From NCBI RefSeq assembly GCF_009725985.1, contig NZ_RCNR01000044.1:1-37999 (forward strand): a stretch of 37,999 nt of DNA. Direction: 5' to 3'. The position numbers and the translations under genes are program-made. Of this stretch, positions 21,957-36,475 are shown piece after piece; the first letter of the stretch is position 1, and each line of letters starts with the position of its first letter. The notes below the pieces were generated by a model. The model had not been told where the DNA came from. It worked only from the letters and a program-made list of their open reading frames with translations, and searched no databases. The stretch is from Zobellia amurskyensis (GTDB taxonomy: Bacteria > Bacteroidota > Bacteroidia > Flavobacteriales > Flavobacteriaceae).

Positions 21957-22841
21957 ATGGATTTACAACACATACGTAGTGCCGTACTACTTTCCAAAAA
22001 ATTAAATTTTACCAAAACGGCAGAGGCGCTGCACATTGTCCAGCCCGCTTTAAGTCGGAAAATTAAACAACTAGAAGAAGCAATTAACACCCCGTTGTTC
22101 AAGAGGAATAAGCGTAATGTGGAGTTGACCAATGCGGGGAACTATTTTATTCCCGAAATGGAAAAACTATTGCTGCAGTATGAATTCATCATTAAACGAA
22201 CCAATCAAATTCATAAGGGAGAAGTGGGAGAACTAAAAATAGGGTTCACTCATTCGGTAATGCAATCCATTTTGCCTGAAATTCTTATTAGTATTCGGGA
22301 AAATCTACCTGGTATGAAGACTATTTTAAAAGAGCTGAACAACCGGGATCAATATGTTCGTTTGCAATCTGGTGAGTTGGATATTGGTTTTGCGACCAAT
22401 CCATTAGTTCCTGTGGGTTTAAAGAGCAAAGTCCTTCATATAGATAATTACGCCGTATTGGTTCCTAAAGGATTTGATATGATTCGGCTACAAAAAGAAG
22501 GGTTCAGTACATTTGCAAAAGAGCCTTTTATATTTCCATCAAAAACAGACGGACCTAATTATGTAAACATCATAGAATCTATTTGTACCAATGCAGGTTT
22601 TATTCCAAATGTGGTTCATGAAACGGATTCGGTGAGTACAAGTATCCGTTTAATCGAGGCAGGAATGGGGGTTTCCTTGGAGCCAATTTCTTCGCTTCGG
22701 GGGTTGAATTTGCCGATTGATTTTTTCGAATTAAAGAATACGCCCCAAAAGGCACAATTAACAATGATCTGGAACCCAAAATTGGAAGTTGAGCACCCAA
22801 AATTATTTACACTTTTGCATAATACCAAGGAGCTTTTATAA
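21957..22841 (+). CDS. LysR family transcriptional regulator
   Basis: This 294-aa regulator has an N-terminal winged helix (residues 1-60; NFTKTAEALHIVQPALSRKIKQLEE). A two-lobed substrate-binding domain follows (GELKIGFTHSVMQSILPEIL, QSGELDIGFATNPLV, EAGMGVSLEPISS). The general fold matches BenM/CatM/CynR-like members, but the effector is not predictable. Divergence from the PLP decarboxylase makes that gene its likeliest target. It is followed by about 700 nt with little coding content. Confidence 0.92.
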   Translation: MDLQHIRSAVLLSKKLNFTKTAEALHIVQPALSRKIKQLEEAINTPLFKRNKRNVELTNAGNYFIPEMEKLLLQYEFIIKRTNQIHKGEVGELKIGFTHSVMQSILPEILISIRENLPGMKTILKELNNRDQYVRLQSGELDIGFATNPLVPVGLKSKVLHIDNYAVLVPKGFDMIRLQKEGFSTFAKEPFIFPSKTDGPNYVNIIESICTNAGFIPNVVHETDSVSTSIRLIEAGMGVSLEPISSLRGLNLPIDFFELKNTPQKAQLTMIWNPKLEVEHPKLFTLLHNTKELL

Positions 22842-23055: not shown

Positions 23056-23540
23056 AATTTTTTCTAAACTTAGTATTAAAAAAGGATTTTTAAACCTGTT
23101 TTGTTACTATATCAATAAAAAGTATACCATATCTCCTCAATTTACCCTTGTAACATAGCATAGCATACCGAAAAATCTCAGGAAAAACCTCTATTTATAC
23201 ATGAAGTCCCTATAATTATACTTAATTTAATAGTAGAATTTAGCGGTATTTTACTGTTAAAAATAAATCAGTGTAAATGATTTAAGAGTATAATTCATAG
23301 AAATAGAATTAGAAAAGTGGCGGACACATATCAAAATTTAAAATCAATTTTATTTGAGAAAAGGTAAGGTTTATTATTTATGGATTATAGTTAAAGAACT
23401 CTCATTACAAGATTTTGAAGAATTATTTAAAAACTTAATTGAAAAATCTGGCCATATTAAATGCTGGTCCTTTTTTCAGTTTGAGTTTAGGAGTTTTGGA
23501 AATAATACTAACGGATGTCCAGTCCCCTAACAATGAAACC
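23056..23540. other. 485-nt AT-rich region without a secure gene
   Basis: It contains the first copy of the AAAACCT-N7-TACAT element (23184 onward) and a weak -7-like TCAGTTTG at 23476-23483 for the redoxin gene. An open frame without ATG runs from about 23344 to 23530; it reads protein-like in part (ELSLQDFEELFKNLIEKSG) but has no start and no recognised match. It could be a gene remnant. Confidence 0.45.
23184..23209 (+). promoter_or_regulatory. AAAACCT-N7-TACAT element, copy 1
   Basis: AAAACCT at 23184-23190, TACAT at 23198-23202, and CC after 5 nt. The first 21 nt from 23183 match 27841-27861 with one mismatch. No good -7 box stands 62 nt downstream (TATTTTAC at offset 63), and the next gene starts 330 nt away, so this copy may be weak or decayed. 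Confidence 0.55.
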
Positions 23541-24128
23541 ATGGCTTTTGTATTGTCAAGCATGATGGAATTGGGGAAGAAAGCCCCAGACTTTAAATTG
23601 CTCGATACTGTTTCGGGTAAGAGTTTAACATTAAGTCAGTTGAAATCTGACGTGGCAACTGTCATATTTTTTATCTGCAATAATTGTGCGTTTGTACATC
23701 ATATTAATCCAAAACTTGTTGAATTAGCCAATAAGTATCAAGCTCTTGGTATGCAATTCGTAGGGATTAGTAGTAACGACATTAAGCAATTCCCTCAAGA
23801 TGCACCCGTCTTCATGACCCAAATGGCGAAGTATCAAAAATATCCTTTTCCCTATTTATATGATGAATATCAAGAAGCTGCAATTGACTATGGGGCGGAA
23901 TGTAATCTTGACTTTTTTGTTTTTGACAAGAATCTGGCGTGTGTTTACACAGGCCGTTTTGATATGACTAGGCCTAGTATTCAACCGGCTACAGGAACCG
24001 ACCTCTCTGCTGCTTTAGATTCTATATTGGCAGGAGAGAATGTTGATTCAAATCAATACCCCAGTATGGGTTCTAGTATAGCATGGAAACGTGGTGTGCC
24101 TAGAAAGAACTTTGAAATGTATTATTGA
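23541..24128 (+). CDS. Thioredoxin-fold redoxin (AhpC/TSA-like)
   Basis: The protein is 195 aa from the ATG at 23541 (MAFVLSSMMELGKKAPDF). The frame is open up to a TTG at 23439, but family members begin at the position chosen here. APDFKLLDTVSGKSLTLSQL is the usual redoxin opening. The active site is CNNC at 46-49, in a group where the motif is CNxC, followed by FVHHINPKLVELANKY. NLDFFVFDKNLACVYTGRFD completes the fold. There is no signal peptide, so it is cytosolic; peroxide or disulfide reduction is likely but unproven. It converges on the araC gene with 7 nt between stops. Confidence 0.87.
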   Translation: MAFVLSSMMELGKKAPDFKLLDTVSGKSLTLSQLKSDVATVIFFICNNCAFVHHINPKLVELANKYQALGMQFVGISSNDIKQFPQDAPVFMTQMAKYQKYPFPYLYDEYQEAAIDYGAECNLDFFVFDKNLACVYTGRFDMTRPSIQPATGTDLSAALDSILAGENVDSNQYPSMGSSIAWKRGVPRKNFEMYY

Positions 24129-24135
24129 TTGCAGC

Positions 24136-25032
24136 TTAGGCTTCAGCTGTAGTAGTACAAGCACTACGTTTTAATAACATGTATTCTCCATTATTTTTAA
24201 ACTGGCGTAAAGAAATGCCCGAGTAACGTTTAAAGGTTTTGGATAAATGACTTACATCTGTAAAACCCAAGTCGTCTGCTATTTGGGTAAGGGTAAAGTC
24301 CGAATTTAATAATCTAATTTCCACAAGCTTCAACTTTCCTTTAATAATATACTCCCTTAAGGACATGCTAACCTGTTTTTTGAAAAACTCACTTACATAA
24401 GTGGGAGACATCATAAATACTTCAGCTAAATTTTCAACCTTTAATAGATCCGGCTTGTCTATGTGTTCATTAATATAGGTAAGCATTTTAGTAATTCGGT
24501 CATCAGTGTTATTCTGTGGGACTTCGTAAAAGTTTCCTTTCTTTATGTTTCTGATAAGTATTTCCATAATACAGTTCATCAAACTTTTAATAAGTGTAAT
24601 GGACTCATTTCCATAATTTCTGGATTCTTGTAAAATCATAGAAGTCAGGTTAGACAAATGTTCCCTGTCCATTTCATTCTTAATAATATCACCAGGCAAT
24701 TGGTTGTAATTACTAAGGATATACGAAGCTTCTTTAAACCATTCATTTTTTTCCTCTGAGTTACGTTTTTCACTCTTAAAAAATGAATCGGTAAACTTTA
24801 GAAACACGAATTTTGTAGGTTGCTCTATGGTAAATGAATGGCATTTTAATGGAGGCAGTAAGAACATACTACCCTTGCTATAACTATGGTGATTGTAATT
24901 TATACACTGTGTGCCTTCACCATTTTTAATTAAGACCAACTCAAAAAAATTGTTTTTAACAGGGCGTTGTTTCCAATCCGTTAACTCAATTTCTTGTATT
25001 TCAAAAGGTTTGTAAGCTTCCAATATCTGCAT
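24136..25032 (-). CDS. AraC family transcriptional regulator
   Basis: This 298-aa regulator has an N-terminal cupin-like sensing domain (about 1-150). The C-terminal AraC DNA-binding domain has two helix-turn-helix units, about 195-285: NLAEVFMMSPTYVSEFFKKQVSMSLREYI and FTLTQIADDLGFTDVSHLSKTFKRYSGISLRQF. It is divergent from the AKR-SDR-AlkB unit with a 234-nt gap that holds one copy of the shared AAAACCT-N7-TACAT element; other copies lie on its far side and before the nitroreductase gene. It is a candidate activator of these units. The inducer is unknown. Confidence 0.92.
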   Translation of the reverse strand: MQILEAYKPFEIQEIELTDWKQRPVKNNFFELVLIKNGEGTQCINYNHHSYSKGSMFLLPPLKCHSFTIEQPTKFVFLKFTDSFFKSEKRNSEEKNEWFKEASYILSNYNQLPGDIIKNEMDREHLSNLTSMILQESRNYGNESITLIKSLMNCIMEILIRNIKKGNFYEVPQNNTDDRITKMLTYINEHIDKPDLLKVENLAEVFMMSPTYVSEFFKKQVSMSLREYIIKGKLKLVEIRLLNSDFTLTQIADDLGFTDVSHLSKTFKRYSGISLRQFKNNGEYMLLKRSACTTTAEA

Positions 25033-25065
25033 ATCCTAGCGTTTATTATACAATAATACGAAAAT

Positions 25066-25075
25066 TGTGCGCACA
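25066..25075. promoter_or_regulatory. Palindrome in the araC divergent region
   Basis: TGTGCGCACA is a perfect GC-rich palindrome in otherwise AT-rich intergenic DNA, 34 nt upstream of the araC start. It may be an operator for araC itself; no second copy was noticed. Confidence 0.3.
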
Positions 25076-25096
25076 CGATGCTGTTTTGGCACTATT

Positions 25097-25123
25097 AAAA
25101 CCTTGTTAAATACATTAACTTCC
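25097..25123 (+). promoter_or_regulatory. AAAACCT-N7-TACAT element, copy 2
   Basis: AAAACCT at 25097-25103, TACAT at 25111-25115, CC at 25122-25123. A -7-like box begins exactly 62 nt after the start of the element, as for copy 3. Its centre lies about 60 nt upstream of the predicted transcription start, a normal place for an AraC-type activator. Confidence 0.6.
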
Positions 25124-25135
25124 TTCTTATGTACC

Positions 25136-25166
25136 TTGTTTGTGTTGCGTTTTGTTCGGACCTTTG
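25136..25166 (+). promoter_or_regulatory. Candidate promoter of the AKR-SDR-AlkB unit
   Basis: TTG at 25136-25138 is followed after 20 nt by GACCTTTG at 25159-25166, one mismatch from TAnnTTTG. The spacing equals that of the cold-shock gene promoter. It predicts a leader of about 95 nt. Confidence 0.45.
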
Positions 25167-25266
25167 TAATACTTTAAAAGGATTTATTTCTTCAATATAT
25201 ATATAGAACATGGACTATTGGAGAACCTGTTTTTAAAGTGAAAAAGGAACCAAAAAAACTCAGAAA

Positions 25267-26211
25267 ATGAAAAAAGTAAACATAGGAAATACCGATTTAG
25301 AAGTAGCTAGAATCAATTTTGGAGGAAATGTATTTGGATGGACATTAGACGAAAAACAGTCTTTTGAAATCCTAGATGCATTTGTGGATGCAGGTTTTAA
25401 CTTTTTAGATACGGCAGATACCTACAGTTGGTGGGTAAATGGCGTGGGTGGACAGTCTGAAGCTATAATTGGTAAATGGATGAAGTCCCGCAGCAACAGA
25501 AATCAATTGGTTGTTGCTACCAAAGTGGGTTCTGAAACTAAGGAGCACCCAAATGATATTAGCAAAAAGCATATTTTAAAGTCCGTAGATGAGTCGTTGC
25601 AACGATTGCAAACAGACCATATAGATTTATATTACACTCATTTTGATGATGATGTTACGCCTGTAGAGGAAACATTATCTGCTTATGATGAAATTATAAA
25701 AGCGGGTAAGGTGCGTCATATTGCTGTGTCAAACTTATCGCCAGAAAGGTTGTTGGAATCATTTAAAATTTCTGAAGAAAACAATCTGCCTAAATATGTG
25801 GCATTACAGCCGCATTATAATTTGGTTGAGCGTGGTAATTATGAATCGCAATATGCGGATTTGGTAGATAGCCACGGTTTAAGTGTTATGCCGTATTATT
25901 CACTCGCAAGTGGATTTCTAACGGGTAAATATCGTTCTGAGGACGATTTGAATAAAAGTGTACGTGGTGAAGGCGTAAGAAAATATTTGAACGAGAAAGG
26001 ATTCAATATAATTAAGGCATTGGATACCATTTCGGAAAAACATAGCAGCAAACCGGCAACGATATCTTTAGCTTGGTTAATGGCAAAACCACACATTGCG
26101 GCGCCAATTGTAAGTGCTACTAGTAAAAGTCAATTACAAACGTTGTTTGATGCTCCAAAGTTGAATTTAGATAGAGAGGATTTAGAAATATTAGAAATAG
26201 CTAGTAAGTAA
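25267..26211 (+). CDS. Aldo/keto reductase
   Basis: This 314-aa cytosolic (alpha/beta)8-barrel oxidoreductase is NADPH-dependent by family. The catalytic tetrad is Asp48 and Tyr53 in FLDTADTYSWW, Lys86 in VVATKVGSE and His125 in LYYTHFDDD. The cofactor region APIVSATSKSQL is near the C-terminus. It resembles the YajO/Gsp69-type branch that reduces aldehydes and ketones. It is first in a co-directional set; the SDR follows after 19 nt. Confidence 0.92.
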   Translation: MKKVNIGNTDLEVARINFGGNVFGWTLDEKQSFEILDAFVDAGFNFLDTADTYSWWVNGVGGQSEAIIGKWMKSRSNRNQLVVATKVGSETKEHPNDISKKHILKSVDESLQRLQTDHIDLYYTHFDDDVTPVEETLSAYDEIIKAGKVRHIAVSNLSPERLLESFKISEENNLPKYVALQPHYNLVERGNYESQYADLVDSHGLSVMPYYSLASGFLTGKYRSEDDLNKSVRGEGVRKYLNEKGFNIIKALDTISEKHSSKPATISLAWLMAKPHIAAPIVSATSKSQLQTLFDAPKLNLDREDLEILEIASK

Positions 26212-26230
26212 TTTTTAAAAGAAACAAAAC

Positions 26231-27025
26231 ATGGATTTAAGAATTAAAGATAAGATTGCCTTTGTTAGCGGTTCTACCGCGGGCATTGGTTACGCCACTG
26301 CAGAACGTTTTTTAAACGAAGGAGCTACGGTTATTATAAATGGCAGAACAGAGGAAAGTGTAAATGCAGCTGTAGCTAAATTAAAAGAGAGTACTAAAAA
26401 TGAGAATGTTTCTGGTATAGCTGCTGATTTTTCTAAAGTAGAGGATATTAACCGATTACTTAAGGAAGTTCCGCAAGTAGATATTTTAGTAAATAACACC
26501 GGTATTTTTGAACCTAAAGCTTTTGTTGATATTCCAGATGAGGATTGGTTTCGCTTTTTTGAAGTCAATGTCATGAGCGGAATCCGTTTGGCGCGACATT
26601 ATTTTCCTAAAATGCTGAAGAAAAACTGGGGACGCATAATTTTTATTTCCAGTGAATCTGCAGTGTTTATTCCGGATGAAATGATTCATTATGGCATGAC
26701 AAAAACAGCGCAATTGGCAGTTAGTAGAGGATTGGCAGAATTAACTAAAGGCACTAATGTCACTGTAAATTCTATTCTACCAGGACCAACAAAATCAAAA
26801 GGCGTAAGTGGTTTTATTCAAGATTTGGCCAAAGCCGATAATGTTTCTGAGGAAGTCGTGGAAGAGAATTTCTTCAAAAATATGCGTCCGACTTCGTTAA
26901 TCGAACGCTTTGCTTCGGTTGATGAAGTGGCAAATACCATAGTATACTATTCTAGTGAATTGGCATCGGCTACAAACGGAGCGGCTGTTAGAGTGGATGG
27001 GGGATTGATTCGTTCTATTCTATAA
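26231..27025 (+). CDS. Classical SDR family oxidoreductase
   Basis: This 264-aa Rossmann-fold dehydrogenase has the cofactor motif GSTAGIG at 14-20, NNTG in place of NNAG near 88-91, a catalytic Ser in FISSES and the YGMTK (YxxxK) pair, then NSILPGPTKS. The C-terminus RVDGGLIRSIL is typical. The substrate is unknown; a carbonyl or alcohol is expected. It shares the transcript with the AKR; the AlkB gene follows after 78 nt. Confidence 0.92.
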   Translation: MDLRIKDKIAFVSGSTAGIGYATAERFLNEGATVIINGRTEESVNAAVAKLKESTKNENVSGIAADFSKVEDINRLLKEVPQVDILVNNTGIFEPKAFVDIPDEDWFRFFEVNVMSGIRLARHYFPKMLKKNWGRIIFISSESAVFIPDEMIHYGMTKTAQLAVSRGLAELTKGTNVTVNSILPGPTKSKGVSGFIQDLAKADNVSEEVVEENFFKNMRPTSLIERFASVDEVANTIVYYSSELASATNGAAVRVDGGLIRSIL

Positions 27026-27103
27026 AGTATACGGTAACATAAAAGCTGCTGGTGACTTGAGTTTTGGTCCGATTTAAATACTAATGATTAAGAGGAAAAA
27101 GAG

Positions 27104-27733
27104 ATGGATTTATTTAATCAGGCGGACTTATTTTCAACAAACGAAGTCCTTAAAATAGAATTTGATTTACCAGGAGCTGATGTTACTTTATTCGAGAATT
27201 TCTTCAGTTTAGAAGAAAGCAATAAGCTGTATAATAGCTTATTACATAACACCCCATGGCAACAAGAGCAAATTACCATTCACGGTAAAGATGTAGACTT
27301 CCCTAGATTGACAGCTTGGTATGGAGATGTTACCAAGGATATTAAATACACGAATACAAAAAGTAAAATGCATTTATGGAATGCAGATTTACTTTTTATT
27401 AAAGAGCGAATAGAGCAGGAGGTCAATATAAAATTTACACGCTGCTTGCTTAATTATTATAGGGACGGAAAAGACAGTGTAGATTGGCACCAAGACTATA
27501 AAGGTGACCAACGAAAAAATACTGTTATTGCGTCGGTAACTTTTGGAGAGACCAGGCCTTTTCAATTAAAACATACTACCCGGAAAGATTTAAAACGTGT
27601 AGATATTCCCTTAGCTCACGGAAGCCTACTTCTAATGAAAGGCGCTACCCAAGATAACTGGAAACATAAAATACAAAAAACGGCAAAGGAAATTCAACCT
27701 AGAATCAACTTGACTTTTAGATGGGTCGGGTAA
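27104..27733 (+). CDS. alkB: AlkB-type Fe(II)/2-oxoglutarate dioxygenase
   Basis: This 209-aa protein of the AlkB family oxidatively removes alkyl groups from DNA or RNA bases. The iron site has HQD in DSVDWHQDYKGD (near residues 125-136) and a distal His in NWKHKIQKT. The 2-oxoglutarate-binding Arg is in RINLTFR near the C-terminus. PRLTAWYGD is the usual nucleotide-lid motif. It sits between carbonyl reductases and a nitroreductase, where repair of base adducts would complement chemical detoxification. Whether it is read from the AKR promoter through the 78-nt gap is not settled. Confidence 0.92.
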   Translation: MDLFNQADLFSTNEVLKIEFDLPGADVTLFENFFSLEESNKLYNSLLHNTPWQQEQITIHGKDVDFPRLTAWYGDVTKDIKYTNTKSKMHLWNADLLFIKERIEQEVNIKFTRCLLNYYRDGKDSVDWHQDYKGDQRKNTVIASVTFGETRPFQLKHTTRKDLKRVDIPLAHGSLLLMKGATQDNWKHKIQKTAKEIQPRINLTFRWVG

Positions 27734-27841
27734 ATTTATATTGGTAACATTAAAGGATAAATCAATTACTATGGGCTTAATATCCGTTTAAAATTCGGGT
27801 ACAAACCTATTTTTGGTCCTATTCCTATAAGATTCCTCTTA

Positions 27842-27868
27842 AAAACCTCTATTTGTACATGTATCTCC
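27842..27868 (+). promoter_or_regulatory. AAAACCT-N7-TACAT element, copy 3
   Basis: AAAACCT at 27842-27848, TACAT at 27856-27860, CC at 27867-27868. The -7 box of the nitroreductase unit starts exactly 62 nt after the first base. A further inverted repeat (CCTTTTTTTAT and ATAAAAAAGG) overlaps the downstream edge at 27867-27890. Confidence 0.65.
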
Positions 27869-27903
27869 TTTTTTTATACTATAAAAAAGGTATGTACTGG
27901 TTT

Positions 27904-27911
27904 TACATTTG
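27904..27911 (+). promoter_or_regulatory. -7 promoter box of the nitroreductase unit
   Basis: TACATTTG exactly matches TAnnTTTG. There is no TTG at the -33 position, which fits a promoter that depends on an activator. The predicted leader is about 30 nt to the ATG at 27948. Confidence 0.55.
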
Positions 27912-27947: not shown

Positions 27948-28622
27948 ATGAGTACACCAAACATCGCAAAAGAAGAAATCATCAACGCTTTTAACTTTAG
28001 ACATGCTACAAAGGAATTTGATGCTACTAAAACTATCTCTGATGATGACATGAAATTCATCTTAGAAGCAGCACATTTATCACCTAGTTCATTTGGTTTT
28101 GAACCATGGCATTTTATAGTAGTTCAGGATAAAGAATTACGGGAGTTATTAAAACCTGTAGCTTGGGGAGCACCGTTAAAATTAGATACTGCTAGCCATT
28201 TTGTATTAGGTTTAAGTATGAAAGCGCCAATGGTAAAACATGATTCAGAATATATCATGCATATGATGAAAGACGTAAAGCAACTACCTGCTGAAGTAAT
28301 TGAAATGTATTCTAAGTTTTATAGAGAATTTCAAGAGCGTGATTTTGATTTGGATACGGACAAAAAATTGTTCGACTGGTCAGCTAAGCAAACGTACATC
28401 GCTTTAGGGAACATGATGACAGCAGCTGCTTTAACAGGAATTGATTCTTGTCCTATTGAAGGTTTTCATCAAGAAAAAGCAGAAGCTTTATTGAAGGAGA
28501 AATTTGGTGTAGATACAGATAAATATGGTCTATCGTTTATGACTGCTTTCGGTTATAGAAAAGCAAATCCAGAATTTGGTAAATCTAGAAGAAACTTTGA
28601 TGATATCGTTACTTGGAAGTAA
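27948..28622 (+). CDS. Nitroreductase family protein
   Basis: The protein is 224 aa from the ATG at 27948 (MSTPNIAKEEIINAF); an upstream in-frame TTG at 27909 lies inside the -7 box and is rejected. FRHATKEFD and HLSPSSFGFEPWHF form the FMN-binding start. KQTYIALGNMMTAAALTGIDSCPIEGF and FMTAFGYRKANPEF match the NfsB-like pattern of the gene at 16237. It would reduce quinones or nitro compounds with NAD(P)H. It heads a run of five closely spaced genes up to 32129. Confidence 0.92.
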   Translation: MSTPNIAKEEIINAFNFRHATKEFDATKTISDDDMKFILEAAHLSPSSFGFEPWHFIVVQDKELRELLKPVAWGAPLKLDTASHFVLGLSMKAPMVKHDSEYIMHMMKDVKQLPAEVIEMYSKFYREFQERDFDLDTDKKLFDWSAKQTYIALGNMMTAAALTGIDSCPIEGFHQEKAEALLKEKFGVDTDKYGLSFMTAFGYRKANPEFGKSRRNFDDIVTWK

Positions 28623-28649: not shown

Positions 28650-29657
28650 ATGAAAGCAATAGGATACAAGGAGAATCTTCCAATAGAGAATGTAAAATCT
28701 CTACAAGACGTAGAATTAGGAATGCCAAAAGCAATTGGCAAGGACATTTTAGTAGAGATAAAAGCAATTTCTGTAAACCCAGCAGATTATAAAGTAAGAG
28801 CAGGAATGCCTGTTGAAGGCGATGATTGGAAAATTATTGGTTGGGATGCTACTGGGATTGTAAAAGAAGTTGGAGAAGATGTTACGCTTTTTAAAGTTGG
28901 TGACGAAGTTTGGTATGCGGGCGATTTCATAAGACAAGGAAGCTATGCTCAGTATCAAGTGGTGGATGAGCGTATTGTGGGCAAGAAACCATCTAGCTTA
29001 TCTTATGCAGAAGCAGCCGCATTACCGTTAACTTCTCTTACGGCTTGGGAAATGTTGTTTGATAGATTAGAAGTTGCAACCGATGATGCAAGTAAGTCAA
29101 TTCTAGTCATTGGTGCTGCAGGTGGTGTTGGTTCTATTTTGGTACAATTAGCCAAGAAGCTTACAAAACTGAACATTATAGGAACGGCTTCCCGTGAAGA
29201 AACTACAGATTGGTTAAAAGAATTGGGTGTAGACTCGGTTATTAATCACCGAAATATACTGAGTGAGGAATTTGAGAAATATAAGCTTTCTGCTCCTGAT
29301 TATATCGTGAGTTTAAATGCTACCGAGCAACATGCGGATGAGATTGTAAAGGTGATAAAGCCACAAGGTAAATTCGGTTTCATTGATGACCCTCAGTCAT
29401 TTAATGTCATGCCATTTAAAGGTAAAGCTGTGTCTACTCATATTGAGTTGATGTTCACTCGTTCTATGTTCCAAACGGAAGATATGATTGAACAGCACAA
29501 CATATTAAACGAGGTTTCTAAGTTGATAGACAACGGAACAATTAAAACCACTTTAGGGGAAAATTTCGGAACTATTAACGCAGCAAATATGCGTAAAGCC
29601 CATGCTTTCCTAGAAACTGGAAAAGCCAAAGGTAAAATTGTTTTAGAAGGATTTTAG
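28650..29657 (+). CDS. MDR alcohol dehydrogenase/quinone reductase-like protein
   Basis: This 335-aa medium-chain reductase has the N-terminal GroES-like domain ISVNPADYKVRAGMP, the segment GWDATGIVKEVGEDV, and the nucleotide-binding GAAGGVGSILVQLAKKL near 152-168. It ends in KAHAFLETGKAKGKIVLE. Catalytic zinc ligands are absent, so it is of the zinc-independent ZADH/quinone-oxidoreductase type despite the usual family name. It follows the nitroreductase after 27 nt, repeating the nitroreductase-MDR order of the TetR operon. Confidence 0.9.
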   Translation: MKAIGYKENLPIENVKSLQDVELGMPKAIGKDILVEIKAISVNPADYKVRAGMPVEGDDWKIIGWDATGIVKEVGEDVTLFKVGDEVWYAGDFIRQGSYAQYQVVDERIVGKKPSSLSYAEAAALPLTSLTAWEMLFDRLEVATDDASKSILVIGAAGGVGSILVQLAKKLTKLNIIGTASREETTDWLKELGVDSVINHRNILSEEFEKYKLSAPDYIVSLNATEQHADEIVKVIKPQGKFGFIDDPQSFNVMPFKGKAVSTHIELMFTRSMFQTEDMIEQHNILNEVSKLIDNGTIKTTLGENFGTINAANMRKAHAFLETGKAKGKIVLEGF

Positions 29658-29687: not shown

Positions 29688-30155
29688 ATGAAAACAACAC
29701 TTAAAATATTTCTTATAGCAGCAATTTTTGCTGGCGCTACGGCTAATGCACAGGTAAATACGATTGATTCCGTGGCGACCTCAAAAGTGCAGCATTTCAA
29801 TTTTGATGAAATGGAATCGGAAACTATTGGCGAAGGTATTCAGCGTAAATGGTTTCATGGAGAAAAAGGTCAAATGACCATTTTCAATTTGGAGAAAGGT
29901 GCACATATTCCATGGCATCAACATCCTAATGAGCAGATTACCTATATCATGTCCGGTAAGGTTAAAATCAAGACTATGATTGATGGCAAAGAGGAGTTTG
30001 TTATTGTTTCTGGTGGAGAGGTAATTGTATTTCCAGAAAACATACCTCATGAGTTTTGGGCTTTAGAAAAAACGGTGGATTTAGATGTTCACGTTCCGGT
30101 TCGTCAAGATTGGTTGTCGAAAGAGTTGCCTGATTATTTAAAGAAGAGCGAATAA
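29688..30155 (+). CDS. Exported cupin-domain protein
   Basis: This 155-aa protein has a Sec signal peptide ending near residue 22 (ATANA-Q). The mature part is one cupin barrel: motif 1 is HIPWHQHPNEQITYIMSGKV, with His, His and Glu as metal ligands, and motif 2 is VIVFPENIPHEFWAL. A metal-bound periplasmic enzyme or binding protein is likely; its reaction is unknown. It is placed 30 nt after the MDR gene, the first of three exported proteins in a row. Confidence 0.88.
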   Translation: MKTTLKIFLIAAIFAGATANAQVNTIDSVATSKVQHFNFDEMESETIGEGIQRKWFHGEKGQMTIFNLEKGAHIPWHQHPNEQITYIMSGKVKIKTMIDGKEEFVIVSGGEVIVFPENIPHEFWALEKTVDLDVHVPVRQDWLSKELPDYLKKSE

Positions 30156-30186
30156 ATAGAAAACTAATAGGATGACATCAATCAAA

Positions 30187-31020
30187 ATGAAACATAACTT
30201 TTTAATTGCATTAGCACTAACTGTAAGTATTTTTTTAAATGCACAAACACCAACAACAGACAATATTAAGTCTGTAAACGAAGTAGTTACCGCAGATAAT
30301 GTAGAATGGGGTTGGTTAAATCCATTACGAGGAGATAAGAGTCCGGCTGCAGGTAAACTTTGGGGAGACCGTACAAAAAACGAACCAGCAGGGTTTTTAG
30401 TGAAATTCAAAAAAGGTTTTTCATCACCTCCACACATTCACAACATAACCTATAGAGGTGTTGTAATTAAAGGTTTGTTGCACAATGATGATGAAAATGC
30501 CGAAAAACAATGGCTTCCGGCAGGTTCTTATTGGCAACAGCCAGCAGGCGAAGCACATATTACAGCTGCAGATGGTGAAGATAATATGGCGTTTTTAGAT
30601 ATTCAAGAAGGACCGTATTTAGTAAAATCAACATCTGAAGCTTTTGATAATGGCGAAAGACCTGTAAATGTTGACAAAACAAACTTGGTTTGGTTAAATG
30701 CTAACGACATCCAATGGGTTTCTGAAAAGAGTAAGGTAGAAACTGCATTTTTATGGGGAAGCCATAAAGAAAAGCAACTACGAGCAACGCTTTTAAAATT
30801 ACCAGCAAATTTTAACGGAAGGATTAAAAACCTGAGTCCAAACTTTAGAGCTGTTGTTATTTCTGGTAGCCTAATGCATCAGTTTTCTAAGAAAGAAGCT
30901 AAAAATAAATTAGATGCTCCATCTTATTTTGGAGCCGAAAAAAATGCGACTTCAATAATTTCCACAGCTAAAGAAACAGTTATTTACATTAGAAGTAACG
31001 GTGATTTTGATATCAAGTAA
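30187..31020 (+). CDS. Exported DUF4437 (double cupin) protein
   Basis: The protein is 277 aa from the ATG at 30187, which gives a clean signal peptide ending FLNA-QTP; the ATG at 30172 adds five residues. DUF4437 signatures are [43 protein letters not shown] and [15 protein letters not shown], with a second weaker cupin half ([30 protein letters not shown]). The HIH and HIT residues may hold a metal. No catalytic function is established as far as I know. Its stop is 2 nt before the next start, so translational coupling is likely. Confidence 0.85.
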
Positions 31021-31022
31021 TT

Positions 31023-32129
31023 ATGAAAAGGATAAGTATACTATTGAGTTTAATTACTTCAGTTACGGCAACTCAAGCACAAAAGACCGTAACTAAAGCA
31101 GAAGTTTTTGCAACTGTAGACCAAGCTGTGGGGAATATTGCTTTCACCAATGACGGCGATTTGGTATACAGTCATCATCCATTTTTTGGTCCAGAAATTA
31201 GAGTGGTCAAGTTTGATAAAAAAACAAATACAACCACACCTTTTCCAAATTTGGAATGGAATACACCAAGAGCTACGGATGATAATTATTTGAGTAATGT
31301 TCTAGGTATTCGTAATGATGAAAACGGAATTATCTGGATGCTAGACATGGCACAACGTGATAACGTAACACCAAAAATAGTGGGCTGGAACACTCAAACT
31401 AATTCATTAGAACGTATTTATTACTTACCAAAATCAGTAGTGCCAGCAATCTCACAACCTAATGATATGGTGGTAGATACCAAAAACGGTTATTTTATTA
31501 TAGCGGATGAAGGCATTGGTAATGGAGGTGATGGTAGTAAAGCGGCTTTTGTTATTGTTGATATGAAAACTGGTAAAGCACGTCGTGTTTTAGAAGGCAC
31601 GCGCACTACCTTACCAGAAAACACGCCAACGGTAATTGATGGAAAGCATTTAGCCGTAAACGGTAAAGATTTATTGATTGGTAATGACGGAATTACTGCT
31701 GATGCTAATTTTGAATATATTTATTACGGTCCTTTAAACGGCACTAAAATCTACAGAGTTAAAACATTAGACCTTGTAGACGAGACTATGACCGAAGCAG
31801 TGTTGGACAGCAAAATTGAAACCTATTCAGAAAAACCCAACAATGGCGGAATGTCTATTGATAAAGAGGGCAATCTATATTTAACAGCTTTAGAAACGAA
31901 GAGTGTAGCTGTAGTTCTAGCAAAAGACAGAAGTGTTCACACCATGATAAAAGATGATAACTTGGTCTGGCCCGATGGTGTTAGTTACAACCATGTAGAT
32001 GGGTATATGTATGTGTCTGCCGCACAGCTGAACAGAGGTGCCGCTTTTAACAATGGCAAAAGCATTGCGACTAAACCTTTTTATATTTTCAGATTTAAAC
32101 CTATAGTAGAAGGGGTTTCTTTTAGATAA
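31023..32129 (+). CDS. Exported MRJP/yellow-like (SMP-30-type) beta-propeller
   Basis: This 368-aa protein has a signal peptide ending near residue 19 (ATQA-Q). The propeller repeats include GNIAFTNDGDLVYSHHPFFGPE, GIIWMLDMAQRDNVTPKIVGWN, QPNDMVVDTKNGYFIIADEG, GGMSIDKEGNLYLTALET and LVWPDGVSYNHVDGYMYVSA. This pattern belongs to the major-royal-jelly/yellow family, bacterial members of which are called L-dopachrome-tautomerase-related; SMP-30 lactonases share the fold. It may act on a quinone-like or lactone substrate in the periplasm. It is coupled to the DUF4437 gene and is the last gene of the set. Confidence 0.87.
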   Translation: MKRISILLSLITSVTATQAQKTVTKAEVFATVDQAVGNIAFTNDGDLVYSHHPFFGPEIRVVKFDKKTNTTTPFPNLEWNTPRATDDNYLSNVLGIRNDENGIIWMLDMAQRDNVTPKIVGWNTQTNSLERIYYLPKSVVPAISQPNDMVVDTKNGYFIIADEGIGNGGDGSKAAFVIVDMKTGKARRVLEGTRTTLPENTPTVIDGKHLAVNGKDLLIGNDGITADANFEYIYYGPLNGTKIYRVKTLDLVDETMTEAVLDSKIETYSEKPNNGGMSIDKEGNLYLTALETKSVAVVLAKDRSVHTMIKDDNLVWPDGVSYNHVDGYMYVSAAQLNRGAAFNNGKSIATKPFYIFRFKPIVEGVSFR

Positions 32130-32180: not shown

Positions 32181-32345
32181 AAAACACCCATTACAATTGA
32201 CCAACTTTAGGGTGAAAACATTTTTTTGGAGTAACATATTAATATCTCTGTGAGGAATATCTGGCAAAGGATATCGTTTATGAAAATAGAAAGGAATTGT
32301 TTCGGAAAGCCTTTCTATACATTAGTAATAAATTATTGAAGGTAT

Positions 32346-32353
32346 TACCTTTG
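32346..32353 (+). promoter_or_regulatory. -7 promoter box of the helicase gene
   Basis: TACCTTTG exactly matches TAnnTTTG and lies 21 nt before the ATG at 32375. It places the transcript start downstream of the in-frame TTG at 32297, which decides the start codon. Confidence 0.5.
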
Positions 32354-32374
32354 CAAACTCCAGAAAAAGATATC

Positions 32375-33928
32375 ATGCAAGAGCCCCTATTTGAATTACA
32401 GGAAAAGAAAACGGATAAAGAACTTTATAGCTACCAGCAAGGTGCCATTAATCAAATATTTGAGAAGTTCGATAATGAAAGAGAAGATTACCACCTGTTA
32501 TATCAATTACCTACTGGTGGTGGAAAGACCGTAATATTTTCTGAAATGGTCCGGCAATACCTTAAAAATCACTCAAAAAAGGTCTTGGTCATGACACACC
32601 GTGTAGAGCTCTGCAACCAGACTTCTAAGATGCTCACCAGTTTTGGAGTGGTCAATAAAGTGGTCAATAGCAAAGCCAATTTAGACGATCATGAAAACTA
32701 CAACTGTTATGTAGCCATGGTAGAAACACTGAATAATAGGCTTAATGATGGTGTATTGGATATCTCAGACGTTGGTTTGGTCATTGTAGATGAGGCCCAT
32801 TATAATTCCTTTACAAAATTGTTTAAATTTTTCGAAAATTCTTTTATTCTGGGGGTTACTGCTACGCCTTTAAGTTCCAATAAGGAGCTGCCCATGAACA
32901 GCAACTATGATGAGTTGATTCCTGGTGAATCCATAGAGAATTTAATTGAAAACGATTTTTTGGCCAGAGCCGAAACTTATCAGTATGATATGGGTCTGAC
33001 TTCTTTGGAGGTAGGTTCCAATGGGGATTATACGGTTAAATCTTCCTCGGACTTGTACACGAGTCCGTCCATGTTGAATAAATTACTGGAAGCTTACACG
33101 TTACATTCCAAGGGTAAAAAGACATTGATATTCAATAATGGTATAGAAACTTCGATCCAGGTATATCATACCTTTAGAAATGCGGAGTTGCCCATTATGC
33201 ATTTGGATAATACGGCTACCAAAAAACAACGAAAACAAATATTAAAGTGGTTTCATGAAACTCCGGACGCGATACTAACATCTGTAAGTATTTTAACAAC
33301 TGGTTTTGATGAACCTACTATAGATACTATTATTCTTAACAGGGCTACAAAGTCCTTGACCCTTTACTACCAAATGATTGGTAGGGGTTCTAGGGTGTTG
33401 AACAACAAATCTAAATTTACCGTAATAGATCTTGGCAATAATATCTATCGTTTTGGTCCTTGGGGTGCAGATTTAGATTGGGAGGCCATTTTTAAATCTC
33501 CTAATTTCTACATAGACCGTATCAAGGACGATGAAGATATTGAAAGTACCTTTAAACATGAGTTAGCCGATGACATTCGGTCAGAATTTTCAAAATCAAA
33601 GGAAACTTATCTGGATATTAATGCTGTATATAAGGATGCCACTTTTTCCGGGGAATCCTCTAAAGTGGTGTTGGAGAAATCTATTGAACAGCATGCCTAT
33701 ATCTGTATAGAAAATAGTGAAGATTTGTATGATGCCCTTGCGTTGGCAAAATTACTTAAGGAAGACATTGATAATAGGATTCAAGTTTATGGCAAGTGTA
33801 TAAGTAAAAGCACCTATAATTTCATAAGCTGGCTAAAACTGGATTATCAGAAAAAGCTTAACGCCTATCTTCGTGAAAATTTTGAGGCCGTTTTTGAACA
33901 AATTCATGGTCATCCGCCAGAAGATTAA
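32375..33928 (+). CDS. SF2 DEAD/DEAH-box helicase
   Basis: The protein is 517 aa from the ATG at 32375 (MQEPLFELQEKK); the longer reading from TTG at 32297 is disfavoured by the promoter box. Motifs are LYSYQQGAINQIF (Q-like, motif 0), PTGGGKT (Walker A, near 46-52), VDEAH (Walker B), TATPL (motif III), the start of the second lobe at KKTLIFNNG, TGFDEPTID, and QMIGRGSRV (motif VI). After the two RecA-like lobes is a C-terminal region of about 150 aa with no recognised domain. It resembles stand-alone type III restriction/UvrB-like SF2 ATPases of Bacteroidota. The role (DNA repair or RNA) is unknown. Confidence 0.88.
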   Translation: MQEPLFELQEKKTDKELYSYQQGAINQIFEKFDNEREDYHLLYQLPTGGGKTVIFSEMVRQYLKNHSKKVLVMTHRVELCNQTSKMLTSFGVVNKVVNSKANLDDHENYNCYVAMVETLNNRLNDGVLDISDVGLVIVDEAHYNSFTKLFKFFENSFILGVTATPLSSNKELPMNSNYDELIPGESIENLIENDFLARAETYQYDMGLTSLEVGSNGDYTVKSSSDLYTSPSMLNKLLEAYTLHSKGKKTLIFNNGIETSIQVYHTFRNAELPIMHLDNTATKKQRKQILKWFHETPDAILTSVSILTTGFDEPTIDTIILNRATKSLTLYYQMIGRGSRVLNNKSKFTVIDLGNNIYRFGPWGADLDWEAIFKSPNFYIDRIKDDEDIESTFKHELADDIRSEFSKSKETYLDINAVYKDATFSGESSKVVLEKSIEQHAYICIENSEDLYDALALAKLLKEDIDNRIQVYGKCISKSTYNFISWLKLDYQKKLNAYLRENFEAVFEQIHGHPPED

Positions 33929-33992: not shown

Positions 33993-34592
33993 ATGAGAAA
34001 GGTTTTGGTTTTGTTTTCGCATCCTAAGTTTGAAAAATCTAGGGCGAATGCCATTTTAGTTGATAAGATTAAAGATAAAGAAGGGGTAACGTTTCATGAT
34101 TTATATCAGCGTTACCCTGATTTTAATATAGATGTAGATGCTGAAAAAGCATTGATGAGTGCCCATGATATTATTATTTTCCACCACCCATTTTATTGGT
34201 ATAGTTGTCCGCCTTTAATGAAACAGTGGATAGATATGGTGTTGGAGTTTGGTTGGGCCTACGGACCAAACGGAACGGCTTTACATGCTAAAAAATGCTT
34301 AAACGTAATTACTACGGGCGGCTCCAGGGCATTGTACTGTGAGCAAGGAACCAACAGCTTTTCGGTGAAAGAGTTTTTACGCCCCTTTGAGCAAACGGCA
34401 AATTTATGTGGAATGCAATATTTTCCGCCTTTCGCCGTGATGGGGACCCATAAAATTGAGGATAAAGAATTACATGACTATGCGCATCAATATGATAAGC
34501 TGATTGATTTACTTCAACAAGATATAGCTCTTCTTGCGGTTAACGACTTTTCTTTTTTAAATGACATTCCACAACTAAATACAGAGATATGA
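33993..34592 (+). CDS. NAD(P)H oxidoreductase, Kef ancillary subunit (KefF/KefG type)
   Basis: This 199-aa flavodoxin-fold quinone-reductase-like protein has VLVLFSHPKFEKSRAN (FMN-phosphate site, 4-19), IIFHHPFYWYSCPPLMKQWIDMVLEFGWAYG (near 61-91), and TTGGS near 108-112. In enteric bacteria KefF and KefG bind and are needed for full activity of KefC and KefB. The stop codon overlaps the start of the antiporter gene by 4 nt (ATGA), so the two are translationally coupled and probably form the same complex at the inner membrane. Confidence 0.9.
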   Translation: MRKVLVLFSHPKFEKSRANAILVDKIKDKEGVTFHDLYQRYPDFNIDVDAEKALMSAHDIIIFHHPFYWYSCPPLMKQWIDMVLEFGWAYGPNGTALHAKKCLNVITTGGSRALYCEQGTNSFSVKEFLRPFEQTANLCGMQYFPPFAVMGTHKIEDKELHDYAHQYDKLIDLLQQDIALLAVNDFSFLNDIPQLNTEI

Positions 34593-36475
34593 CGGGTAGT
34601 ATTCTTTTTGAAGCCATAGTCTTTTTATTAGGCGCCATTATTTGTGTATCTATTGCCAAACGTCTAGGGTTAAGCTCGGTGTTGGGGTATTTAATTGCTG
34701 GTGTATTAATAGGGCCTTATGTACTAGGTTTTATTGGTAATGAAGGAGAGGATATTCTCCATTTTGCAGAATTTGGCGTAGTTATGATGCTGTTTTTGAT
34801 CGGCTTGGAAATTGAACCTGAAAATTTCTGGAAAATGCGGAAAACCATCGTGGGAATGGGCGGTATTCAGGTTGCCGGCACCGTGTTACTCTCATATTTC
34901 CTATTCATTCTATTTGGTTTTGATTGGAAAGTTGCCTTGACTTTTTCTATGGCAGTGGCATTATCCTCTACGGCAATAGCATTACAGACCATAAAGGAAA
35001 AAGGTTTGTTGAATACCACTTTTGGTCAATCGTCATTTTCCATATTATTGTTTCAGGATACCATTGTTATTTTCATGCTTGGGGCCTTGCCGCTCTTGGC
35101 CTCTACGGATAAACCTACGGTAGAAAATTCTGGTGATCATGTTAATTTACTTCAGAATTTACCATTGGGCTTACAAACCTTAGCTATTTTGGTGTCGGTT
35201 GTCGCTATAGTGGTAGCGGGTAAGTACTTAATAGTTCCCATGTTACGCAAAGTTGCAAAAACCGGGGTAAGGGAATTACTGATTGCTGCGGCTTTGCTTA
35301 TAGTTTTCGGGATTTCATTCTTAATGGAATTGGTAGGCTTAAGCCCTGCTTTGGGAGCTTTCTTAGGAGGTGTGGTTTTATCCAATAGCGAGTTTAAGCA
35401 CGAGTTGGAAAGTACCCTGGAGCCTTTTAAAAATTTACTGTTAGGCTTGTTCTTTATGGCCGTTGGTGCCTCCATAAACTTTATAGTCATTGCTAAGAGT
35501 CCGCTAACTATTGGCGGTATTTTAGTTGCCGTAATTGTATTAAAAGCCCTAATTCTATTTATTACAGGTTCTGTTTTTAAATTAAAATTAAATCAAAAAC
35601 TACTCTTAACGTTTAGTTTGGCACAAGTAGGGGAGTTCGCATTTGTTTTGTTATCATTCGCTTTTTCGCTGAATATTTTAGAGCAAAACCAAATGGATAT
35701 TATGTTGGTGGTAACGGCACTGACCATGACGGTTACTCCCATTATTGGAATGATAAACGAACGTGTTTTATTACCGCGTTTGGGAACCAAAGAATCTATA
35801 AACAGGCCAATGGACCATATTGCTAAAGCACAAAAAGTGATTTTAGTTGGTTTTGGGCATTTTGGAAGTACAATTGGGCGCTTTCTAAGAACACACGGAG
35901 TGGAAGCTACTATTTTGGACCATGATGCAAATCGTGTGGATTTTCTTCGTAAAATGGGCTTTGATGTCTATTATGGAGATGCAACAAGAACGGATTTATT
36001 GGAATCGGCTGGCATAGCGGAGGCAAATATTTTAATTTGTGCTATGGATAATCCTGAAGTCATAAAGCAATTGGCCAAGACGGTAAAAAGTAACTATCCG
36101 CAAGTAAAATTAATGGTCAGGGCCAAAAATAGATATGCGGCCTATGAGTTCTTAAATATGGAAATAGATCATATTTATAGGGAATCTCTTGAAACGTCTT
36201 TAAAATTGGCCAGTGAAGTTCTTAGTCAAATGGGTTTCAGAAAATATACACTACAGCGTCAAGTACAGAACTTTATTAAGTATGACGAGGATAGTTTAAG
36301 ACGTTTGGCAAAAGAGGATAAAATTGGTGATGAAAACTACATCTTTAAAGCGCGTAAAGAACTTGAACAGCAAGAAAAACTTCTTGAGCAAGACTTTAAA
36401 CGGGGAATTGTGGAGTTCGATAGTCATTGGGATAGCGAACAGATAAGGATTGCTCTGGACGACGTAAAATTATAG
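34589..36475 (+). CDS. Kef-type K+/H+ antiporter with RCK domain (CPA2)
   Basis: This 628-aa inner-membrane transporter has about 12 hydrophobic segments in residues 1-390 (Na_H_exchanger fold; GYLIAGVLIGPYVLGF, LFLIGLEIEPENFWKMRK, FSMAVALSSTAIALQTI). A TrkA-N/RCK domain begins near 410 (VILVGFGHFGSTIGRFLRTHG, DGDA-type DATRTDLLESAGI). In enteric bacteria Kef channels open when glutathione adducts of electrophiles bind, and the acidified cytoplasm protects the cell. The glutathione site cannot be judged here. It is coupled to the ancillary subunit. A final KefB/KefC assignment is not possible. Confidence 0.92.
   Translation: MTGSILFEAIVFLLGAIICVSIAKRLGLSSVLGYLIAGVLIGPYVLGFIGNEGEDILHFAEFGVVMMLFLIGLEIEPENFWKMRKTIVGMGGIQVAGTVLLSYFLFILFGFDWKVALTFSMAVALSSTAIALQTIKEKGLLNTTFGQSSFSILLFQDTIVIFMLGALPLLASTDKPTVENSGDHVNLLQNLPLGLQTLAILVSVVAIVVAGKYLIVPMLRKVAKTGVRELLIAAALLIVFGISFLMELVGLSPALGAFLGGVVLSNSEFKHELESTLEPFKNLLLGLFFMAVGASINFIVIAKSPLTIGGILVAVIVLKALILFITGSVFKLKLNQKLLLTFSLAQVGEFAFVLLSFAFSLNILEQNQMDIMLVVTALTMTVTPIIGMINERVLLPRLGTKESINRPMDHIAKAQKVILVGFGHFGSTIGRFLRTHGVEATILDHDANRVDFLRKMGFDVYYGDATRTDLLESAGIAEANILICAMDNPEVIKQLAKTVKSNYPQVKLMVRAKNRYAAYEFLNMEIDHIYRESLETSLKLASEVLSQMGFRKYTLQRQVQNFIKYDEDSLRRLAKEDKIGDENYIFKARKELEQQEKLLEQDFKRGIVEFDSHWDSEQIRIALDDVKL

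Follow-up and report, generated by a model that had tools for sequence, protein, structure and literature searches.

We analyzed positions 1 to 37,999 of contig NZ_RCNR01000044.1 from Zobellia amurskyensis (37,999 nucleotides, forward strand; hereafter, the window), which include a gene for an AraC-type regulator surrounded by three copies of a short element, AAAACCT-N7-TACAT. An original prediction, made from the sequence alone, had linked these copies to the AraC-type protein and to two nearby promoters. Comparison with related genomes supports this link: the element forms the first half of a tandem direct repeat of 40 bp with a 21-bp period, which we predict to be the operator of the adjacent regulator. 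The locus contains the following genes and features.

23184..23223, + strand: tandem operator A, whose second half is weak, 317 nt ahead of the TSA start (27.1 bits); function unsure
23541..24128, + strand: AhpC/TSA-type protein (TSA), convergent with araC (PF00578, E 1.6e-16 for the frame 23439-24128; the start at 23541 was picked from relatives)
24136..25032, - strand: AraC-type regulator, 298 amino acids (HTH_18, E 3.8e-15; HTH_AraC, E 2.8e-14)
24994..25011, - strand: putative intragenic half-site AAACCTTTTGAAATACAA in araC codons 8-13 (KPFEIQ), the best half-site of the araC coding sequence
25051..25058, - strand: -7-like box TATTATTG of the predicted araC promoter, at 38 nt from operator B and with 5 of 6 consensus letters
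25097..25136, + strand: tandem operator B, with two half-sites, between araC and AKR (32.7 bits)
25159..25166, + strand: -7-like box GACCTTTG of the predicted AKR promoter (5 of 6 consensus letters), 62 nt from the first base of the operator
25267..26211, + strand: aldo/keto reductase (AKR), the first gene behind operator B (PF00248, E 1.4e-68)
26231..27025, + strand: SDR oxidoreductase, 19 nt past AKR (PF00106, E 2.6e-41)
27104..27733, + strand: AlkB-like 2OG-Fe(II) oxygenase, 78 nt past SDR, a candidate member of the AKR-SDR unit (PF13532, E 7.6e-33)
27842..27881, + strand: tandem operator C, upstream of the nitroreductase operon (39.1 bits)
27904..27911, + strand: -7 box TACATTTG of the predicted nitroreductase promoter, 62 nt from the first base of the operator
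27948..28622, + strand: nitroreductase-family protein, the first gene behind operator C (PF00881, E 2.6e-27)
28650..29657, + strand: zinc-binding alcohol dehydrogenase (ADH) family protein (TIGR02817, 536 bits; cut-off, 284.05)
29688..30155, + strand: cupin protein with a signal-peptide-like start, judged by eye (PF07883, E 4.7e-12)
30172..31020, + strand: DUF4437 protein (PF14499, E 5.2e-111)
31023..32129, + strand: MRJP-like protein, the final gene of the compact run (PF03022, E 2.5e-13)

The copies of AAAACCT-N7-TACAT at 23184, 25097, and 27842 were confirmed as exact matches, all on the + strand, compared with a mean of 0.00 matches in 100 dinucleotide shuffles. Within the whole genome (5,136,021 bases in 120 contigs), the pattern occurs only at these three places, and its reversed control occurs four times. 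Across the family, the 19-bp pattern was not visibly commoner than the reversed control (judged by eye from an unsummed table), so the short pattern alone is unspecific and only its clustering at this locus is specific; its frequency in relatives was accordingly dropped as a sign of function. A CC noted earlier at 5 to 6 nt after TACAT is present in all three copies but belongs to a second half-site, which lies 21 bp downstream and ends in TAC. The same tandem form is found upstream of araC in relatives (39 loci around araC orthologues of 74 to 87% identity, taken from the GTDB collection), where AAACCTTTWWWWRTACAT is followed by CC and TAC again 21 bases further. When 48 such sites were scored with a half-site matrix, the mean was 8.2 bits at an offset of +21 (>5 bits in 37 of the 48) and -22.2 bits or lower at every other offset between 10 and 59.

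A 40-column matrix built from these 48 sites, all from relatives' araC upstream regions outside the window, detected only the three operators above 4 bits in the window; the best of 6 million simulated positions reached 12.1 bits. The second half-site is strong at 27842 (19.0 bits), moderate at 25097 (11.5 bits), and weak at 23184 (5.2 bits). The core pattern occurs without mismatch at these three places only in the genome. Allowing up to two mismatches gave 188 places, versus 262 for the control, and among the 30 that were scored (27 of them other than the window's three), no distant regulon member was found, the best site outside the window having 12.9 bits. That the three copies are chance occurrences, or repeat remnants without function, is highly improbable, even though the 19-bp pattern by itself is matched in 206 of 299 family genomes. 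Frequent occurrence at random positions in the genome had been named as a refutation, but the element is not scattered. In its own genome, the 40-bp form is restricted to this locus; together with a promoter box, it is limited to relatives carrying this araC or a paralogue, at a near-fixed spacing to the promoter, which speaks against chance for sites B and C.

The copies at 25097 and 27842 were claimed to have -7-like boxes 62 nt from their first base, and the boxes (GACCTTTG and TACATTTG) are indeed there; the distance, proposed as fixed, is refined to 61 or 62 by the relatives. In Flavobacterium psychrophilum, sigma A promoters have TAnnTTTG as their -7 consensus, according to excerpts of the published study (PMC9723704). 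The 39 loci contain 79 operator matches of at least 14 bits (training sites included), and in 63 of these TAnnTTTG starts at +62 (46 matches), +61 (15 matches), +60 (1 match), or +63 (1 match) from the first base of the operator. Upstream of araC, 35 of 49 operators (window included) have a full -7 match at 61 or 62 on the target side, and on the side facing araC, 33 of the 49 have a box with five or six of the six letters at a distance of 36 nt, some of them tied with another place. Because boxes occur at set distances on both sides, two divergent promoters seem to share one operator. The regulator's own gene is very probably a target, since its -7-like box lies mostly at a fixed distance on the operator's other side.

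An operator with at least 11 of 14 core letters precedes 48 of the 50 distinct araC orthologues outside the window, and all 39 loci hold an operator; in relatives, it is found upstream of orthologous units. An araC orthologue (E < 1e-130) is present in 17 of the 299 family genomes, and a 68-bp operator-plus-TTTG pattern is present in 18, with three matches for the reversed control. This operator-plus-box pattern occurs in 16 of the 17 genomes with the orthologue (G164 lacks it) versus 2 of the 282 others (Fisher p = 2e-23, uncorrected for kinship), and in none of the 263 genomes without an AraC match at 1e-40. In a class-wide sample, 2 of 295 genomes matched, as did the reversed control twice; these were the own genome and G567, where the site lies upstream of a 70% identical araC.

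The nitroreductase gene provides a natural experiment, being found with and without the regulator, that ties the operator to its protein. A close orthologue was found in 34 of the 299 genomes, and loci from 30 of them were scored. All 15 loci from genomes with this araC contain an operator (32.0 to 47.6 bits), versus none of the 15 from genomes without it (best score anywhere in the locus, 8.4 bits). The element therefore tracks the araC orthologue, and the proposed link to the neighboring AraC-type protein is borne out for sites B and C as a well-supported prediction, with the comparison leaving little room for chance. Each of the 15 genomes without this araC has an HxlR-type gene within the 3.7-kb locus, and none was detected at E 1e-8 in the 15 nitroreductase loci with it. 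A swap of regulators over one gene, HxlR-type versus AraC-type, is possible. As given in the accessible part of one report (PMC6943732), the HxlR-type proteins YodB, CatR, and HypR of Bacillus subtilis answer to quinones, diamide, and HOCl, and their regulons include a nitroreductase. The HxlR-bearing loci are L162 (about 2180-2410), L165, L170, L173-L177, L179, L182, L183, L185, L187, L188, and L190; by eye, the protein in L162 has an N-terminal CC pair, and a palindrome-like sequence, ACTATAA/TTATAGT, lies between the genes.

It is improbable that another regulator owns the operator. One candidate is the LysR-type protein, whose gene (21957-22841) adjoins site A. A LysR gene was found in 4 of the 39 loci (9-kb flanks), whereas the operator is in all 39, and LysR was rejected as its owner. 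The second candidate is an additional AraC-type protein of relatives: paralogues of 36 to 37% identity occur in the same clusters of several relatives, with a related tandem operator nearby. The paralogue-type operator differs in sequence (TTTACTA ... TACTACCA), and the two genomes that match without the orthologue (G173 and G294) carry only the paralogue (36% identical; E below 1e-40) and only the paralogue-type operator. Related tandem operators (AACCTTRTTTTTTACTAAAACNACCATTTTTACTACCA and variants, with the same +62 box) were also seen at L053:3222 and 5291, L045:3173, L064:2448, L072:2376, and L052:536; they sit in loci with the 36 to 37% identical AraC paralogue, and the genes behind them are OGFOD2-like (below cut-off), enoyl-CoA hydratase-like, and bestrophin-like.

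We put at roughly 85% the probability that the 40-bp element serves the adjacent AraC-type protein as its operator; we infer that this protein binds as a dimer to two head-to-tail half-sites (ACCT-N7-TACAT, 21 bp apart) and activates the AKR-SDR and nitroreductase units. The predicted downstream half-site stops 22 nt short of the -7 box, at the place of a -33 element; the promoter that a bound dimer would thus activate has little besides its -7 box. The targets here would be the AKR-SDR unit and the nitroreductase-ADH-cupin-DUF4437-MRJP operon. For these, behind operators B and C with their boxes, the local regulon suggested earlier is supported as a prediction; it is less supported for the copy at 23184 upstream of TSA and for AlkB as a member of the AKR-SDR unit, which was judged by its 78-nt gap.

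A further putative half-site lies within araC itself. In 51 of 51 distinct orthologues (window included), the best half-site of the coding sequence is at nucleotide 22 of the sense strand, as AAACCTTTTGAAATACAA or close variants, and among six-codon windows of the gene, synonymous conservation is highest at codons 8-13 (0.89 bits per codon; mean, 0.29; standard deviation, 0.17). Thirteen distant AraC homologues (32 to 38%) showed no comparable site (best half-site in the first 200 nt, 3.9 bits; best tandem site, 10.7 bits), and no partner 21 bp from the intragenic half-site was seen by eye. This half-site, with its center about 104 bp from the first half-site of the operator, suggests an araO2-like role, probably in autoregulation and perhaps through a DNA loop. 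Offsets from operator to ATG (n = 49) are 52 (2 cases), 59-64 (26 cases), 72-73 (19 cases), and 91 and 214 (once each). They fit helical phasing, as for a loop, and phase relative to the araC promoter may explain part of the pattern. On the tree, parsimony requires 14 changes between offset classes; well-supported branches account for fewer obligatory ones, 5 for the 62 class and 2 for the 72 class, under a bootstrap that had not converged.

We consider it rather unlikely that the match in codons 8-13 is no operator and instead results from constraint acting on translation, on codon use, or on the KPFEIQ peptide. This peptide hardly varies, and synonymous conservation is raised over the first codons generally (0.95 and 0.75 bits at codons 3 and 4). 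The Lys, Phe, and Gln codons follow the general first-codon bias and say little, because neighboring genes also favor AAA, TTT, and CAA (89, 91, and 97%) among their first codons. The Pro and Ile codons do not follow this bias: in codons 8-13, Pro is CCT in 49 of 51 cases and Ile is ATA in 49 of 49, versus 25% and 46% in codons 2-20 of neighboring genes (61 Pro codons, among which CCA prevails, and 299 Ile codons). The DNA motif also survives residue changes: L072 and L078, with Val in place of Ile, have GTACAA, and the half-site score rises to 19.3 in L088, in which two residues are changed.

Several observations weigh against the operator reading or its extent. A -7 box at +60 to +63 from site A is absent from the window, from the Zobellia barbeyronii locus (L034), and from L060, as well as, by eye, from L074. 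The element is present at 23184 as originally described, but it is uneven in relatives: five loci of the genus have TSA next to araC, and their orthologous places scored 36.5, 26.7, 15.4, 10.9, and, in one, nothing above 0. Site A is separated from the TSA start by 317 nt in the window versus about 125 nt in L034, the stretch 23224-23540 being about 190 nt longer, and the TSA upstream regions aligned poorly. Between the window and L034, seven neighboring proteins are 93 to 97% identical, compared with 90% for LysR, 87% for AraC, and 75% for TSA. Site A may be a decaying or auxiliary site. Loss of the element where araC is kept had been named as a refutation; it is mostly kept, with exceptions for the araC-upstream copy, which is degenerate in L051 and L071, while L081 is counted among the 48 (11 of 14 letters), yet has its high-scoring site at a distance of 214 nt from the ATG. 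The 48 training rows include two, L035 and L081, for which the frame used as anchor was wrong or degenerate. Agreement among relatives' araC-upstream sites is partly circular because the training set includes most of them, and related genomes are not independent. Likewise, 10 of the 15 positive nitroreductase sites lie in the intergenic region common with araC, most of them in the training set; the remaining five, outside it, scored 33.8 to 40.3 bits. Among the 79 operator matches, 16 lack TAnnTTTG at 60-63, including strong araC-upstream sites and 4 of 5 matches ahead of a transporter-like gene cluster; one of the 16 is cut by the locus end (L035:20), and three overlap a better match (L035:8910, L037:8910, and L061:8868). 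A separate peak of synonymous conservation from codon 149-150 of araC reaches 0.77 bits. The predicted operator, its period and spacing, its co-occurrence with araC, and the synonymous conservation derive from sequence comparison; the loop and the signal rest on analogy.

In relatives, 34 of the 39 loci have an operator ahead of a nitroreductase-family gene, and 29 of the 35 matches at such genes end 64 to 72 nt before the start of the open reading frame. Other operators precede genes for ABM monooxygenase, MRJP-like, TSA, AKR, ADH, and transporter-like proteins (for the ABM, MRJP-like, and transporter clusters, one member each was scanned; the transporter member was BCCT). The regulator very probably switches on genes that appear suited to detoxifying reactive chemicals in marine flavobacteria. 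Cys43 and Cys64 are present in 51 of 51 araC orthologues and absent from four aligned AraC paralogues, and a C-terminal Cys is present in 47 of the 51.

Downstream, at 33993-36475, the window contains a pair of genes that score as KefF (212.2; cut-off, 210) and as KefC-like (593.6, below the cut-off of 752). KefFC guards against electrophiles. The scan with the 40-column matrix detected no operator ahead of this pair in the window, and relatives of one or both genes are also near araC in several of the 39 loci. A DEAD-type helicase, RadD-like below cut-off, is encoded at 32297-33928 and is also near araC in several relatives. The target genes, the KefFC-like pair, and the conserved cysteines together suggest a response to electrophiles or quinones. 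By analogy, the signal is probably a reactive electrophile, a quinone, or a similar compound, which the three conserved cysteines of the regulator could sense. In an excerpt of a study on Zobellia galactanivorans (PMC5613140), the AraC and HxlR families are named, at the family level, among regulators up-regulated on polysaccharides. We advance only tentatively, at somewhat less than even odds, the fuller proposal of a thiol- or electrophile-responsive AraC-type switch of marine flavobacteria that took over a nitroreductase regulon run by an HxlR-type redox regulator in relatives and in which codons 8-13, doubling as protein code and DNA recognition site, would loop to the tandem operator of two divergent promoters.

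Beyond the original prediction, the comparison adds the tandem form, its geometry relative to two promoters, the HxlR-type gene found in relatives in place of this araC, and the coding-embedded half-site. Titles and abstract beginnings listed by literature searches gave no description of this operator or regulon, and little was found there on AraC-type operators in Bacteroidota beyond sugar regulons. Here, such an operator is predicted to the base, with its spacing to two promoters. The coding-embedded half-site would be a direct case for dual codon constraint, and the regulon opens a way to study how flavobacteria associated with algae may deal with reactive chemicals.

The protein belongs to a well-known family, having the AraC/XylS C-terminal two-HTH domain (HTH_18 and HTH_AraC above cut-off), and among PDB structures its profile matches the DNA-binding domain of AraC as well as MarA and SoxS; a candidate N-terminal AraC_binding (cupin-like) domain scored 20.8 bits, below the cut-off of 21.1. 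The predicted half-site, ACCT-N7-TACAT, has the AraC/XylS form of two boxes about one helical turn apart, and direct-repeat half-sites by the promoter, as in dimeric activators, are indicated by an offset of 21 being the only one to score and by the box at 61 or 62. The monomeric MarA/SoxS/Rob type was ruled out, the sites being tandem. It is not an arabinose regulator by profile (67 bits for the AraC arabinose equivalog; cut-off, 208), and no arabinose gene was named among the 19 window proteins scanned. In Escherichia coli AraC, half-sites are spaced by 21 bp, and araO2 lies in the araC leader. As in araI1-araI2 of that system, the half-site here has two boxes seven bases apart, and a putative extra half-site on the araC side recalls araO2, although it is within the coding sequence here. 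Two adjacent half-sites are also common to both, the second of which recruits RNA polymerase in AraC, as stated in excerpts of PMC4760080. The half-site sequence, the targets, and the promoter type (-7 TAnnTTTG) differ from those of E. coli. The consecutive sites resemble those of the dimeric AraC/XylS activators MtlR, XylS, and MekR, and the MtlR sites, placed ahead of the -35 sequence, likewise have the weaker half-site downstream, according to PMC4514859; those systems have other half-site sequences and proteobacterial promoters, and MtlR answers to mannitol, arabitol, and glucitol. In the genes that it is predicted to control, the system also resembles the HxlR/DUF24 redox regulators YodB, CatR, and HypR, whose regulons respond to stress from quinones, diamide, and HOCl and comprise a nitroreductase and related genes (excerpts of PMC6943732), whereas their protein family and operator are unrelated to those described here.

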